Source: an uncultured Clostridia bacterium (GTDB taxonomy: Bacteria; Bacillota; Clostridia; Christensenellales; Borkfalkiaceae). Taken from it: a stretch of DNA of 64,000 nt. The notes below the pieces were generated by a model that was not told the origin of the DNA, did no database searches, and saw only the letters and a list, made by a program, of their open reading frames with translations. How positions within the stretch are numbered: the first letter of the stretch is position 1; every line of letters starts with the position of its first letter. The DNA is taken from positions 1 through 64,000 of the forward strand of contig CALVHO010000006.1 of the NCBI GenBank assembly GCA_944328445.1, in the 5' to 3' direction. Positions 2,675 to 63,560 of this stretch are shown here, in pieces. Made by a program: the position numbers and the translations under genes.

Positions 2675-3148
2675 TTAGTCGAATTCGATCGCCTGCGAGA
2701 TCTTCACGATCTGCGAAAGGTTGAGCTTGAAGGTCTCCCCCTCCCTCTCCACGGTGATGTTGCCCGCGGCGCCGTCATAATCGCGCAGCACCGCCTCGAA
2801 AAACTTTTCCCCGCGGATGGGCGCGAACAACTTGATCTCCACCTTCTTGCCGATGTTTTTCAAAAAGTCGCTTTCCTTTTTGAAGGGGCGGTCCAGCCCC
2901 GGGCTGCTGACGTTCAGGGTGTACGGCTGCCCGAAGGTGGGGTCGAGCTCGTCGAGCACGGGGTCGGCCGCGTTGTGGAAGCGCTCGCAGGCGTCCAGGT
3001 CGATACCGCCTTCGCGGTCCGTGTCCAAAAACACGGTCAGCGACGGGTGCCGCCCCTGACGGAACACCACCTCGTACAGTTCCACGCCCTGCTCTTCGGC
3101 GATGGGCCGCAGGGCCCGTTCGATCTCTTCCAACGGCTTGACCTTCAT
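2675..3148 (-). CDS. rimP: Ribosome maturation factor RimP
   Basis: RimP assists 30S subunit maturation. The 157-residue product has the family pattern: N-terminal KPLEEIERALRPIAEEQGVELYEV, the LTVFLDTDREGGIDLDACERFHNA segment, and the LNVSSPGLDRPFKKESDF motif, followed by a C-terminal SH3-like domain ending IVKISQAIEFD. The ATG at 3148 follows GGGAGGGAGC and gives the usual length; an open frame extends 17 codons further upstream but would run into the leader hairpin. This is the first gene after the promoter at 3239-3267 and leads the nusA operon. Downstream, 93 bases separate it from nusA. Confidence 0.93.
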   Translation of the reverse strand: MKVKPLEEIERALRPIAEEQGVELYEVVFRQGRHPSLTVFLDTDREGGIDLDACERFHNAADPVLDELDPTFGQPYTLNVSSPGLDRPFKKESDFLKNIGKKVEIKLFAPIRGEKFFEAVLRDYDGAAGNITVEREGETFKLNLSQIVKISQAIEFD

Positions 3149-3177
3149 GCCGCTCCCTCCCGCGTGAACGTGCACAT

Positions 3178-3212
3178 AAAAAGATTTGAGAGCGGGCAAC
3201 CACTCTCAATCT
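3178..3212 (-). terminator. Terminator-like hairpin in the rimP-nusA leader (possible attenuator)
   Basis: Reading the minus strand, AGATTGAGAG (3212 to 3203) pairs with CTCTCAAATCT (3192 to 3182) around a ten-base loop, with one bulged base, and is followed at once by a run of four to five U. This is intrinsic-terminator architecture, yet it lies about 20 bases downstream of a good promoter and 30 bases upstream of the rimP start. It could cap readthrough from ispG and the PolC-like gene, but promoter transcripts must also pass it. In Bacillus subtilis the equivalent leader holds a NusA-dependent attenuator; the same use here is inference. Confidence 0.65.
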
Positions 3213-3238
3213 CATGCTAACGTATATTCAGTAGCCAT

Positions 3239-3267
3239 ATTATACCACACCGTCACGCATTTGGCAA
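3239..3267 (-). promoter_or_regulatory. Promoter of the rimP-nusA operon
   Basis: On the minus strand TTGCCA (3267-3262) is separated by exactly 17 bases from TATAAT (3244-3239), with TGTGG immediately before the -10 box (extended -10). The -35 box lies in the last codons of the PolC-like gene. It gives the translation-factor operon its own start independent of ispG. Confidence 0.8.
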
Positions 3268-4791
3268 GCATTTTTTTGCTTTTATCAGCTCAATGAAGAT
3301 TTTTGCCGTCGCGAGCGCGTCGTCGTAGGCGCGGTGGTGGCGGAAATCGATGCCGTAGAAGGCGGCCAGCGTGTTGAGCTTATAATTGGGCAAAAAGAGA
3401 GCGCTCCGCGCGATGTCGACGGTGTCGTACGCACGGTGGTCGAACATGTAGCCGCTCTGTTCGCCGTAATATTGGATGAACTTGCAGTCAAACTGCACGT
3501 TGTGGCCGACGAGCAGGCAGCCGTCGCAGAACTTGTAAAAATCGGGGATGACCTCGCCGATCTTCGGCGCGCCTGCGAGCATTTCGTCGGTCAGGCCGGT
3601 GAGCTTTACGATCTCTTCGGTGAGCTTCCTCTGCGGGTCGACGAGGGTGGAAAACTTTTCGCGCACCTCGCCGCGGACGATCTTGACGGCGCCGATCTCG
3701 GTGATGGCGTCCATGTTCCCCGACGCGGCGGTGTTGGACAGGCCCGTCGTTTCCAGGTCGAACACGACAAAGGTGTTGTCGACGAGGTCTTTGGGGAGAG
3801 CGGCTTGCTCGAACAGGCTCAGCTGGTTGTAGTCGACGAGCTTTTCGGGTTTGACGCACGTATAGCGCGCGGGGACGGGCAGGCCTTTGCGCTTTTCGGG
3901 CACGAACCCCGCGGGCGGCGCGCCGCGGTTGATGTAGCGCGCGGTGTAGCCGAGCTTGTCGCGGAAAAGCTCGTTTTCGCCCGTGCAGACGATGGAATCC
4001 CCTTCCTTCAACGCGCGGATCTTCGCCTCCGTCTTTTTGCGGAGAAAATACGAAAAGCTGAGCGTGCCCGTGCCGTCGCCGATGGTAAAGCGCAGGTACG
4101 GCTTGCCCTTCTGCGTTTCGCGCTCCCGGATCTGCGTGATGGTCCCGCAGACGGTGAGCATCTCGCTGGGGAAGTTGCAGTCGGCGATGTAGGTCGCCAG
4201 AACGGGCGCTTCGGCCAGGTCGATGGGTTCAAACCCCGTCACGGCAAAGGTGCGCAGGGGCTGCAACTGCGGCGCGGGCTCCTCTTCGGGCTCGTCCGCC
4301 CCGTCCTCTTCCACGACGTCGCCCTTGTCCTTGTCTTCGAGCGAACCTTCAAAGCGGTTGCAGAAGGCGCGGCCGAGCATGCGCTCCACCTCCGCGAGGA
4401 TGCCGCCGTTGCGCTCGAAGTAGCCGCGCTCGGCCGCGTCTACGCCGAAGACGAAGCGGACGGGTTCGCCGAGGTGCACGACGATGTCCTCCGCGCGGAT
4501 GCAGGCCGCGGCCGCGCTGTAACGGGCGGCAAGGTAGTCCAGGATGGCATGGCGGACGAGGCGCTCGTCCGCCACGTGGCGGCGGATGTGCGCCTTTCCC
4601 GCAAAGCCCGCGGGCGCCGCCTCGGCCGCCGCGGCCGCGGCGGCGCGTTCGGACGCCGCGGGGTACGCGGCGTCCGTCACGATCTCGAAGAGGCATGTTT
4701 TATCGGGTATGTCGACGACGATCTTGCGCAGCACCGCACGCGAAAGCCCTTCTTCCGCGCGGATGCGCGCCAAAAATTCCTGTTGGTCCAT
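3253..4791 (-). CDS. PolC-like OB-fold/3'-5' exonuclease protein lacking the polymerase
   Basis: A 512-residue protein at the exact place of polC (between ispG and rimP) that resembles only the N-terminal third of PolC. Residues 1-190 look like the PolC N-terminal region with an Ala-rich insert and an acidic stretch; about 210-290 is an OB-fold (LTVCGTITQIRE, YLRFTIGDGTGTLSFSYF); about 340-505 is a DnaQ-type DEDDh exonuclease with FDLETTGL (D345, E347), NVQFD (D435) and HHRAYDD (H485/486, D490), all catalytic residues present. The PHP domain, palm, fingers and thumb of PolC (about 1,430 residues in relatives) are absent; the reading frame stops cleanly. The ATG at 4791 is preferred over an in-frame TTG at 4848; neither has a strong ribosome site. 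It is probably a proofreading or repair exonuclease derived from PolC. Whether a separate polymerase partner exists elsewhere cannot be seen. Confidence 0.85.
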   Translation of the reverse strand: MDQQEFLARIRAEEGLSRAVLRKIVVDIPDKTCLFEIVTDAAYPAASERAAAAAAAEAAPAGFAGKAHIRRHVADERLVRHAILDYLAARYSAAAACIRAEDIVVHLGEPVRFVFGVDAAERGYFERNGGILAEVERMLGRAFCNRFEGSLEDKDKGDVVEEDGADEPEEEPAPQLQPLRTFAVTGFEPIDLAEAPVLATYIADCNFPSEMLTVCGTITQIRERETQKGKPYLRFTIGDGTGTLSFSYFLRKKTEAKIRALKEGDSIVCTGENELFRDKLGYTARYINRGAPPAGFVPEKRKGLPVPARYTCVKPEKLVDYNQLSLFEQAALPKDLVDNTFVVFDLETTGLSNTAASGNMDAITEIGAVKIVRGEVREKFSTLVDPQRKLTEEIVKLTGLTDEMLAGAPKIGEVIPDFYKFCDGCLLVGHNVQFDCKFIQYYGEQSGYMFDHRAYDTVDIARSALFLPNYKLNTLAAFYGIDFRHHRAYDDALATAKIFIELIKAKKCLPNA

Positions 4792-4855: not shown

Positions 4856-5902
4856 TCAGCGCGACGCCAGCAAAGCGTCCAGCTCCTGCAAAAAGACCGC
4901 CTCCGCCTCGTCGGCAGGCACGGTGCGGTACGGTTCGCCCTTGCGGAAGAGCACGCAGCGGCCCTCCCCGCCCGCGATCCCGAGGTCGCAGTCCTTCGCC
5001 TCGCCCGGGCCGTTGACGACGCAGCCCATCACCGCCACCTTGCAGCGCTTGTTCACGCCGAACACCCGCCGCTCCACGCGCTGCGCCAGCGCCATGCTGT
5101 TCCAGGCGCAGCGGCCGCACGTCGGGCAGGCGATGACCTCAACGTAATCTTTTTCCAGCCCGCAGGCGCGCAGGATGCGCTTGGCCGCGTACACCTCTTC
5201 GACGGGGTCGTCCGTCAGCGAAACGCGGACGGTGTCTCCGATGCCGTCCAGAAGCAGCGCGCCGATGCCGACGCTGCTCTTGACGATGCCCGTCTCCTTG
5301 GTGCCCGCCTCGGTCACGCCCACGTGCAGCGGGCGGTCCGTGCGGGCGGCGAGGGTGCGGTACGCCTCGACGGTCAGCGGCACGGACGAAGCCTTGACGG
5401 AGATGACGATGTCCTCCACGCCGTGCCTTTCCAGCACGGCCACGTTTTGCAGCGCGCTCTCCACGAGCGCGGCGGCCGTGCGGCCGTATTTTTGCAGGTG
5501 TTCTTTTTCGATGCTGCCCGTGTTGGCGCCGACGCGCACGCAGATGCGGTGGGCGCGGATGCAGTCTGCCACCTGTGCGATCTCCGCCTCGCCGCCGATG
5601 TTGCCCGGATTGATGCGCACCTTGTCCGCCCCGCTCTCGATGGCAAGCACGGCCAGCCGCGCCGAAAAATGGATGTCCGCCACCACGGGCAGCGAAGACG
5701 CCGCCTTGACGGCGCGGATGGCGCGCGCGTCCCCTTCGTCGCGCACGGCCACGCGCACGATCTCGCAGCCCGCCGCGGCCAGGCGGCCGATCTGCGCGAG
5801 CGTCGCCTGCACGTCGGCGGTGGGCGTGGTCGTCATCGACTGCACGCGCACGGGCGCGCCGCCGCCGAGGGAGAGCCCCCCTACAAAAACTTGCCCGCTC
5901 AT
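4856..5902 (-). CDS. ispG: 4-hydroxy-3-methylbut-2-enyl diphosphate synthase (flavodoxin)
   Basis: IspG converts MEcPP to HMBPP in the non-mevalonate isoprenoid pathway using a [4Fe-4S] cluster. The 348-residue protein has the TIM-barrel N-terminal part (VQSMTTTPTADV, ADIHFSARLA, RINPGNIG) and the C-terminal cluster domain with the expected ligands: C259 and C262 (ACPTCGRC), C294 and E301 (MGCVVNGPGE). Length is the short bacterial form. In many Clostridia ispG follows dxr and rseP; those are missing here and nrdR lies upstream instead. It ends about 65 bases before the start of the PolC-like gene, so the two are likely co-transcribed. Confidence 0.95.
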   Translation of the reverse strand: MSGQVFVGGLSLGGGAPVRVQSMTTTPTADVQATLAQIGRLAAAGCEIVRVAVRDEGDARAIRAVKAASSLPVVADIHFSARLAVLAIESGADKVRINPGNIGGEAEIAQVADCIRAHRICVRVGANTGSIEKEHLQKYGRTAAALVESALQNVAVLERHGVEDIVISVKASSVPLTVEAYRTLAARTDRPLHVGVTEAGTKETGIVKSSVGIGALLLDGIGDTVRVSLTDDPVEEVYAAKRILRACGLEKDYVEVIACPTCGRCAWNSMALAQRVERRVFGVNKRCKVAVMGCVVNGPGEAKDCDLGIAGGEGRCVLFRKGEPYRTVPADEAEAVFLQELDALLASR

Positions 5903-61790: not shown

Positions 61791-63560
61791 ATGGGTTTTT
61801 GTTCTTATTCCAATGAATTTTCGCAGTCGTCCTACACGAACGTCGAAAACCAGTTCATCCAGAAATACATGGCGCTGGGCGAGGGTGACGCCGTAAAAGT
61901 CTACCTCTTCGGCCTGTACCTTTGCCAGAACGTGCAGGGGGACTATTCCCTGGCCGAGGCGGCCAAAACGCTCAACCTGCCCGAAGAGACGGTGACGGAG
62001 TATTTCCGCTTTTGGGAAGATTTCGACCTGTTGGAGATCGTCACCTACGAGCCCTTCGCCGTGCGCTACTTCCCCGCCGACTACGCCAAGGGCAAGCCCA
62101 AACGCATCCGCGGGGAAAAGTATACCGACTTCAACAAGGCGCTGCAATCGCTGATGCCGAAGCGCATGATCTCCTCCACCGAATTCATGAAGTACTTTTC
62201 GGTCATGGAAGAATACGGCGTCAAGCCCGAGGCCATGCTGCTGATCGTGCGCTACTGCCTCGACCTCAAAGGCGAAAACATCGCGGCCAACTACATCCTG
62301 CAAGTGGCGAAAAATTTCGCCGCCGAAGGCGCCGTCACGGTGGAGCAGGTGGAAGGCAAGCTCTCGGGCTACCTCGTGCAAAACAGCGAACTTTCCGAAG
62401 TGCTCCGCGCCCTCGGCTCTTCCAAAAAGCCCGAGCCCGAGGACCACAAGCTGTTCAAAAAGTGGACGGAAGAATTCGGCTTCGGCAAAGACGCGGTCGT
62501 GTTCACGGCCAAAAAGGTCAAGCGCGGCGGCATCGCGGGGCTGGACCGCACCCTCACGGAGCTGTACGCCAACAAAAAATTCGGGCCCGCCGAAATCGGG
62601 GAATTCCTCGACGGCAAGGAGACGCTGCGCGCCCTGACGCTGGAAGTCGCCAAGGAGCTGGGCGTGTACTGCGCCGTCGTGGAGACGTACACGGACAACT
62701 TCGTCAGCGGCTGGCTGGCGGACGGCTTCGACGCCCCTTCCCTCGTCGTGCTGGCGAAATACTGCTTCCGCCGCGAAAAGAAATCCTTTGAAAAGATGGA
62801 CGAGCTTTTGAAAAAGCTCTCCTCCCTCGGCGCCGTTTCCGCGGAGAGCATCGCCGCCTACATCGAAAACGAGGCCCGCGAACGCGCCTTCGCGGGCGAA
62901 GTGCTGCGCGCGACGGGCGCGCAGCGGCGTGTGACGAACTGGGACCGCGACTGCCTGCAAAACTGGCGGCGCTGGGGCTTTTCGGACGAGATGATCCTCA
63001 AAGCCGCGGCCCTGGCCGAGGGCAAGGCCAGCCCCGTCCCCTACATCACCTCCGTGCTCTCTTCGTGGAAGGCGGAGGGCGTGTTCAGCCCCGCGCAGAT
63101 CGGGAGCCGCGCGCCCGCCCAAAAGGACGAGGGCGCCCGCGAGCGGGAGCGCGAAGCGGCACGGCGGGTGCAGAGCTACTACTTCAACCTGCGCGAAAAG
63201 GCGAAGGACCGCGCCGAACACTACCGCAAACTGGCCGAATCAGACGAGGCGTTTGCCCGCAACGAGGACGCGCTGCGCGCGGCCGAGATCGCGCTGGCCA
63301 AGGCCGAGGCGCTCGGCGGAGACGTGCAGACCCTTTCCGCGCAGCTGGACGGGTACAGACGGGAACGCGCCGACATCCTCGCGCGGCTGCACCTGCGCGA
63401 AGAGATGCTCGAACCGCAATACCGCTGCAAGAAGTGCAACGACACGGGCTTCGACAAGGACGGCAACGTGTGCGACTGCTACCGCAAATTCGTTTCGGAA
63501 GCAAGCGCGGACGAACGGCTGGAAAACATCCTCGACGCCTATTCCGACATCGACATCTGA
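61791..63560 (+). CDS. DnaD-domain protein with DnaC-type N-terminal zinc motif at its C terminus
   Basis: A 589-residue replication-type protein. Residues about 1-90 are a DnaD-like winged-helix start (NEFSQSSYTNVENQFIQKYM, YSLAEAAKTLNLPEETVTEYF). Several DnaD/DnaB_2-like helical repeats follow, the last being TNWDRDCLQNWRRWGFSDEMI with SPVPYITSVLSSW. The final 100 residues form a coiled coil and then YRCKKCNDTGFDKDG with CDCYRKF (Cys546, 549, 561, 563), the pattern that opens the DnaC/DnaI helicase loader. The AAA+ ATPase that should come next is absent: the frame stops and a terminator follows. It may recruit DnaB without ATP. GGAG lies before the ATG. Confidence 0.8.
   Translation: MGFCSYSNEFSQSSYTNVENQFIQKYMALGEGDAVKVYLFGLYLCQNVQGDYSLAEAAKTLNLPEETVTEYFRFWEDFDLLEIVTYEPFAVRYFPADYAKGKPKRIRGEKYTDFNKALQSLMPKRMISSTEFMKYFSVMEEYGVKPEAMLLIVRYCLDLKGENIAANYILQVAKNFAAEGAVTVEQVEGKLSGYLVQNSELSEVLRALGSSKKPEPEDHKLFKKWTEEFGFGKDAVVFTAKKVKRGGIAGLDRTLTELYANKKFGPAEIGEFLDGKETLRALTLEVAKELGVYCAVVETYTDNFVSGWLADGFDAPSLVVLAKYCFRREKKSFEKMDELLKKLSSLGAVSAESIAAYIENEARERAFAGEVLRATGAQRRVTNWDRDCLQNWRRWGFSDEMILKAAALAEGKASPVPYITSVLSSWKAEGVFSPAQIGSRAPAQKDEGAREREREAARRVQSYYFNLREKAKDRAEHYRKLAESDEAFARNEDALRAAEIALAKAEALGGDVQTLSAQLDGYRRERADILARLHLREEMLEPQYRCKKCNDTGFDKDGNVCDCYRKFVSEASADERLENILDAYSDIDI

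Follow-up and report, generated by a model that had tools for sequence, protein, structure and literature searches.

A polymerase-less remnant of PolC in Christensenellales and its likely role as a clamp-tethered proofreader for DnaE1

What occupies the polC locus of a clostridial genome in which the gene is far too short to encode a polymerase? This question is raised by a stretch of 64,000 nucleotides (the window) from an uncultured member of the Borkfalkiaceae (contig CALVHO010000006.1 of assembly GCA_944328445.1). Between ispG (4856–5902, minus strand), the upstream neighbor that marks the polC locus, and rimP (2675–3199, minus strand), which is followed by nusA (1466–2653), lies one uninterrupted open reading frame of 512 amino acids (3253–4791, minus strand). 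The encoded protein comprises two N-terminal alpha/beta domains (residues 1–158; 4318–4791, minus strand), an OB fold (residues 180–292; 3916–4254, minus strand), a linker and a DEDDh 3′-5′ exonuclease (residues 340–506; 3274–3774, minus strand).

Pfam searches assigned residues 213–272 to an OB fold (PF01336) and residues 342–499 to an RNase_T exonuclease (PF00929, E 6.6e-36), and no match to PHP, palm or finger domains was found in the 512-residue protein, even at E ≤ 10. An AF2 model (pLDDT 92 overall, 94 for the N-terminal pair) showed the two alpha/beta domains, the OB fold, a flexible linker and the exonuclease, the catalytic residues of which are D345, E347, D435, H486 and D491. An earlier note, made from the sequence alone, had described a 512-residue protein between ispG and rimP with a PolC-like N terminus, an OB fold and an intact DEDDh exonuclease. 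All of this held, apart from the last two catalytic residues, given there as H485 and D490 and thus one position off; the strand had not been stated.

The relationship to PolC rests on several parts of the protein. In hhalign comparisons the N-terminal region alone matched PolC in register (probability 97.6, E 3.7e-12), as did the OB fold alone the PolC-type OB fold preceding the exonuclease (probability 99.0), and both together reached a probability of 99.7 (E 2.4e-25). The top structural match in Foldseek was PolC from Enterococcus faecium (9qpc, 396 columns), while the top sequence match among solved proteins was the exonuclease of Thermotoga maritima PolC (2p1j, E 1.5e-63) with 218.7 bits vs. 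107 bits for E. coli epsilon. None of the curated family models is satisfied: the protein reaches 156 of the 873 bits of the PolC model NF001688, palm and fingers not being matched, 84 of 196 and 83 of 222.7 bits of the epsilon models PRK05711 and TIGR01406, respectively, and 160 of 508 bits, by its exonuclease part only, of the DEDD exonuclease/UvrC-like family PRK07883. Its locus and three domains in order identify the gene as a polC orthologue in remnant form. The tree with PolC and epsilon/DnaQ families that the earlier note had proposed does not establish if the exonuclease descends from that of PolC or was fused at a later stage, as the alignment is too short (172 columns). The tree remained unresolved even after omission of long branches, and a clade uniting short forms with PolC was not rejected (p = 0.078).

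Compared with PolC (PRK00448, TIGR01405), the reduced protein shares the ispG-polC-rimP-nusA locus, the two N-terminal domains, the OB fold, the DEDDh exonuclease and a QxxLF-type motif, but lacks the PHP, palm, thumb, finger, HhH and C-terminal domains (512 vs. ~1,400 residues). Its exonuclease is not inserted in a PHP domain; where PolC carries a PHP stretch of about 80 residues between OB fold and exonuclease, a linker of about 40 residues is present.

With the polymerase part of PolC absent, the replicase content of the source genome (1.92 Mb, 96.5% complete) becomes decisive. A whole-genome search revealed no PolC and only a single C-family polymerase gene (PF07733), encoding a DnaE of 1194 residues with PHP, polymerase, finger, HhH and OB domains that exceeds the curated thresholds of two models for DnaE subunit alpha and carries a clamp-type motif, QMNLF, at residue 947. 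With just one PF07733 gene, relocation of the PolC polymerase to another locus is ruled out. The remaining polymerase is inferred to be of the DnaE1 type on the basis of its complete set of domains, intact PHP domain, QxxLF motif and clostridial position in the DnaE tree, rather than from a tree with reference DnaE1-3 sequences. Loss of the DnaE PHP domain to make room for the remnant is likewise ruled out, its ligands (HHDHEHCDH) being intact in 43/43 sequences. PF00929 proteins number two, the reduced PolC and a protein of ~326 residues on C4; as the latter is a distant DEDDh_C protein, the reduced PolC is the only epsilon-like DEDDh enzyme of the source genome. The distant DEDDh_C exonuclease (G000:C4:62720-63205) is itself conserved in nearly all same-genus genomes. 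As a separate observation, DnaE (L081:1316-4897) and the DnaE of nearly all sampled short-form species contain a loop insertion of ~8–40 residues near positions 476–510 that is absent from PolC bearers.

The short form is fixed in the genus, where it occurs in 25 of 25 genomes, the other 24 proteins sharing 57–74% identity with that of the window. Among 297 sampled genomes of the order (GTDB Christensenellales), PolC, called at E ≤ 1e-120 with the PolC model, is present in 99, spread over 17 families, and in none of the other ~198. Near-full-length short forms (~500–550 residues) were found in families 1, 3, 6, 8, 9, 10, 14, 18, 19, 20, 24, 28, 29 and 32, where family 1 corresponds to the Borkfalkiaceae, and family 16 contains degenerate short forms. 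The short-form families, at least 14 in number, and the families with full PolC form disjoint sets. In the short-form genomes examined, PF07733 detected one full gene, that of DnaE, with the exception of a few genomes with an additional partial match of ~330 residues and of one 81%-complete genome without any match. Family 1 includes members with public records as Candidatus Gallimonas and Coproplasma, matched to the family by percent identity only; Coproplasma has been placed in the Borkfalkiaceae within the Christensenellales (PMC8035907). Outside the order, matches among 245 sampled genomes of the class were mostly exonucleases within full PolC (frames of ~1,330–1,550 residues) and in a few cases stand-alone DnaQ-like proteins; no short form was present among the listed matches from these genomes.

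Gene order and phylogeny point to a single origin of this distribution. In many families the short form lies within the arrangement ispG-x-rimP-nusA, and so does full PolC in sister families. Among five genomes examined from other orders, polC comes after ispG in four, and rimP-nusA was recovered in one of these. In a DnaE tree rooted with five Clostridia from other orders, 27 short-form species formed one clade (SH-aLRT 100) nested among PolC bearers, from which we conclude that the PolC polymerase was lost once. The same split between short form and PolC appeared in trees for NusA (support 99) and, weakly, for IspG (support 49). Faster evolution of DnaE upon loss of PolC was considered and dropped, as the stem of the clade is long for DnaE, comparable for NusA and short for IspG. 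The suggestion of the earlier note that the lineage had lost the polymerase module of PolC and kept the exonuclease is thus supported, with no full PolC, one DnaE, the short form fixed throughout the genus and in many other families at the same locus, and a single loss. Of the parts of the reduced protein, the exonuclease shows the strongest conservation, with dN/dS values as low as 0.05 within the genus.

A feature that had escaped the earlier note is a clamp-binding-type motif, Q323-L-S-L-F327 (3811–3825, minus strand), in the flexible linker between OB fold and exonuclease. QLSLF is the known clamp motif of Bacillus subtilis PolC, and binding depends on its positions 1, 4 and 5 (PMC12309361). 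Q323 and F327 are conserved to ≥90% in 53 homologues, about as strongly as the catalytic residues. It has to be kept in mind that this set was fetched with an exonuclease motif, so that the catalytic residues do not constitute independent evidence there. The pattern Qxx[LIMF][FLM] occurs in the linkers of 48 of the 53 homologues vs. 4.3% of shuffled linkers; the glutamine is missing in five, and one sequence (G029) is without the motif altogether. In PolC, on the other hand, the motif resides at the C-terminus in 27 of 28 rows (~23 distinct), a single row having it in the OB-exonuclease region. The reduced protein has no C-terminal motif of this kind, and the clamp motif has apparently been re-created at a new place. 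Docking of the linker on the sliding clamp is an inference from sequence, as binding data are lacking and the clamp contact was not modeled.

We consider it likely that the remnant of PolC is tethered to the clamp and proofreads for DnaE1 in trans, with the reservation that this function is inferred and has not been subjected to a biochemical or genetic test. In this scenario, a single ancestral event in the clade would have stripped PolC of its PHP domain and entire polymerase. The remnant would dock on the sliding clamp and probably also bind DnaE1, much like PolC and DnaE in B. subtilis, with the N-terminal and OB domains positioning it at the replisome. It would excise mispaired 3′ ends left by DnaE1 and thus serve as a proofreader of the epsilon kind, derived from PolC and acting in trans. 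For B. subtilis PolC, trans-proofreading of DnaE has been shown, along with recruitment by DnaE and stimulation of DNA synthesis by DnaE (PMC5627055). That a free exonuclease works with DnaE, as the earlier note had proposed, remains an inference, which is strengthened by the clamp motif together with the published trans-proofreading by PolC. The two cases share correction of DnaE errors in trans by the PolC exonuclease but differ in that full PolC acts alongside DnaE3 in B. subtilis, whereas the present clade has no PolC polymerase left and relies on DnaE1 as its only replicase.

DnaQ/epsilon of E. coli Pol III offers a second comparison. Like epsilon, the remnant is a separate DEDDh exonuclease that is expected to serve a DnaE1 polymerase, and it has its motif beside the exonuclease; E. 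coli epsilon possesses a clamp motif of its own next to the exonuclease. Unlike epsilon, the reduced PolC features the N-terminal and OB domains of PolC, places the motif before the exonuclease and scores far below the epsilon family cut-offs. It also has almost no C-terminal tail, since only ~6 residues follow the exonuclease fold in the AF2 model, where an E. coli-type epsilon tail would bind the PHP domain of alpha; the remnant may, however, dock through another surface.

In families 16 and 19, with the exception of genus g96, the catalytic site of the exonuclease has been lost: 25 sequences lack the DEDDh residues while retaining open frames of 490–560 residues. Genome searches showed no loss of catalytic residues in the other sampled families. 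The last aromatic residue of the clamp motif is lost in 24 of the 25 dead forms (QxNFV, QLSLD, QIRFD), and 54 of 61 exonuclease-intact rows keep the motif (Fisher p 5e-14 for the association of both losses, relatedness being ignored and some rows being near-duplicates). The best tree implies two exonuclease losses, yet one origin is not rejected (AU p = 0.29). The dead forms still appear constrained, though dS is saturated. Given two family groups with a catalytically dead version, replicative proofreading by reduced PolC cannot be essential in every lineage. In the proposed scheme, the intact PHP site of DnaE1 would act as a second proofreader that allowed some families to afford the loss. 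A more far-reaching version, in which DnaE1 is the sole polymerase, the dismantled PolC serves as a clamp-bound replisome subunit, and some families subsequently inactivated the exonuclease while retaining the scaffold as a structural part of the replisome, is tentative and in our judgment falls a little short of being favored. Compensation of the dead exonuclease by a second DnaQ was rejected as inconsistent, because several such species are without any. Some species with dead remnants in families 16 and 19 (L290, L291, L296-L300) encode stand-alone DnaQ-like proteins of ~190–240 residues, others none. One species of family 16 (G039) has a separate exonuclease of 449 residues with a weak BRCT match (L068:5088-6434) alongside the dead remnant, which was not found consistently in other dead-exonuclease species.

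The main rival to trans-proofreading is a mainly structural role, in which the N-terminal/OB scaffold contacts DnaE, the clamp loader or the clamp and the exonuclease is dispensable. It is favored by the 25 full-sized open frames devoid of catalytic residues and by the reported resemblance of the N-terminal domains of PolC to tau domain V (Timinskas and Venclovas, 2011). A fold search with the N-terminal pair gave weak KH/BON-like matches only, and tau domain V was absent among the best 50. Retention of the catalytic residues in the other sampled families, the superior conservation of the exonuclease and the low dN/dS in the genus speak against a purely structural role, which we regard as unlikely; a scaffold function may possibly coexist with proofreading.

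Similarly improbable is a function in DNA repair or RNA processing, in which the exonuclease no longer acts at the fork and its motif recruits it to repair sites. In support, DnaE1 with its intact PHP site could proofread alone, the pairing of an OB fold with a DEDDh exonuclease is also suited to repair or to RNA substrates, and the activity has been lost in some families. On the other hand, the protein is replicase-derived, very widely kept, bears a clamp motif and constitutes the only epsilon-like DEDDh enzyme of the source genome. A third alternative, retention of the N-terminal half of PolC with a DnaQ-type exonuclease fused later in place of the PHP domain and polymerase, draws on the unresolved exonuclease tree and on the clamp motif directly before the exonuclease, as might be the case for a new junction. 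It is rendered unlikely by the closeness of the exonuclease to that of PolC among solved sequences (218.7 vs. 107 bits for E. coli epsilon) and by the best class-wide matches, which are nearly always exonucleases within full PolC. Such a fusion would bear on the origin alone and does not conflict with a proofreader function. A decaying pseudogene or an assembly break, suggested by the absent polymerase half, is all but excluded by the same form in all 25 genus members and at least 14 families, with open frames and signs of purifying selection.

Three replicase sets have been described, DnaE1 only, PolC plus DnaE1 and PolC plus DnaE3 (PMC3919608; PMC12926913), in surveys that covered ~2,000 and 3,000 genomes; PMC12926913 used complete genomes, which would under-sample a clade known mostly from metagenome assemblies. 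PolC lacking the exonuclease accounts for 6% of PolC and occurs in Clostridia/Negativicutes (PMC3919608). It likewise separates exonuclease from polymerase in Clostridia but represents the reverse case, with the polymerase kept. DnaE1-only Clostridia (PMC3919608) share the single DnaE1 replicase, and no polC remnant is reported for them in the relevant passages of that paper. A PolC without polymerase was not found described in the openly searchable literature, subscription papers and supplements excluded. A DnaE1-only replicase combined with an exonuclease-bearing remnant of PolC is thus previously undescribed in searchable literature, while priority remains unproven.

In a large clade of gut Clostridia, PolC plus DnaE1 gave way to DnaE1 alone, leaving behind a remnant that looks like the proofreader of DnaE1. 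A natural series of full PolC, exonuclease remnant and dead remnant is available, and the division of labor between PolC and DnaE1 in Clostridia becomes testable by comparison. A prediction bearing on microbiome selectivity is that PolC inhibitors such as ibezapolstat would have no target in gut Clostridia of this clade.

A rewired replisome, at which the earlier note had hinted on the basis of a DnaD/DnaC-type protein and a tailed DnaB, is not established. Of this, only the DnaB_2 (DnaD-type) domain was confirmed, in a protein of 589 residues (61791–63560, plus strand) that carries a C-terminal CxxC…CxC cluster resembling the zinc part of DnaI/DnaC loaders and in which no AAA+ domain was found.

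The clean stop of the reduced polC followed by a rimP promoter, likewise noted earlier, held as sequence. The promoter, TTGCCA-17-TATAAT (3267–3239, minus strand), overlaps the last codons, which contain its −35 box, and the stop of the gene; it starts the rimP-nusA unit and is conserved in five of five genus members compared. A similar pattern was present at 44 of 51 loci, against an expectation of 11.8. No Rfam match above gathering score was found at the locus. Downstream of the promoter, the rimP leader (3160–3225, minus strand) contains an inverted repeat, GAGAGTGG...CCGCTCTC, with a T-run, that is common to five genus members and is a possible candidate for an attenuator of rimP-nusA.
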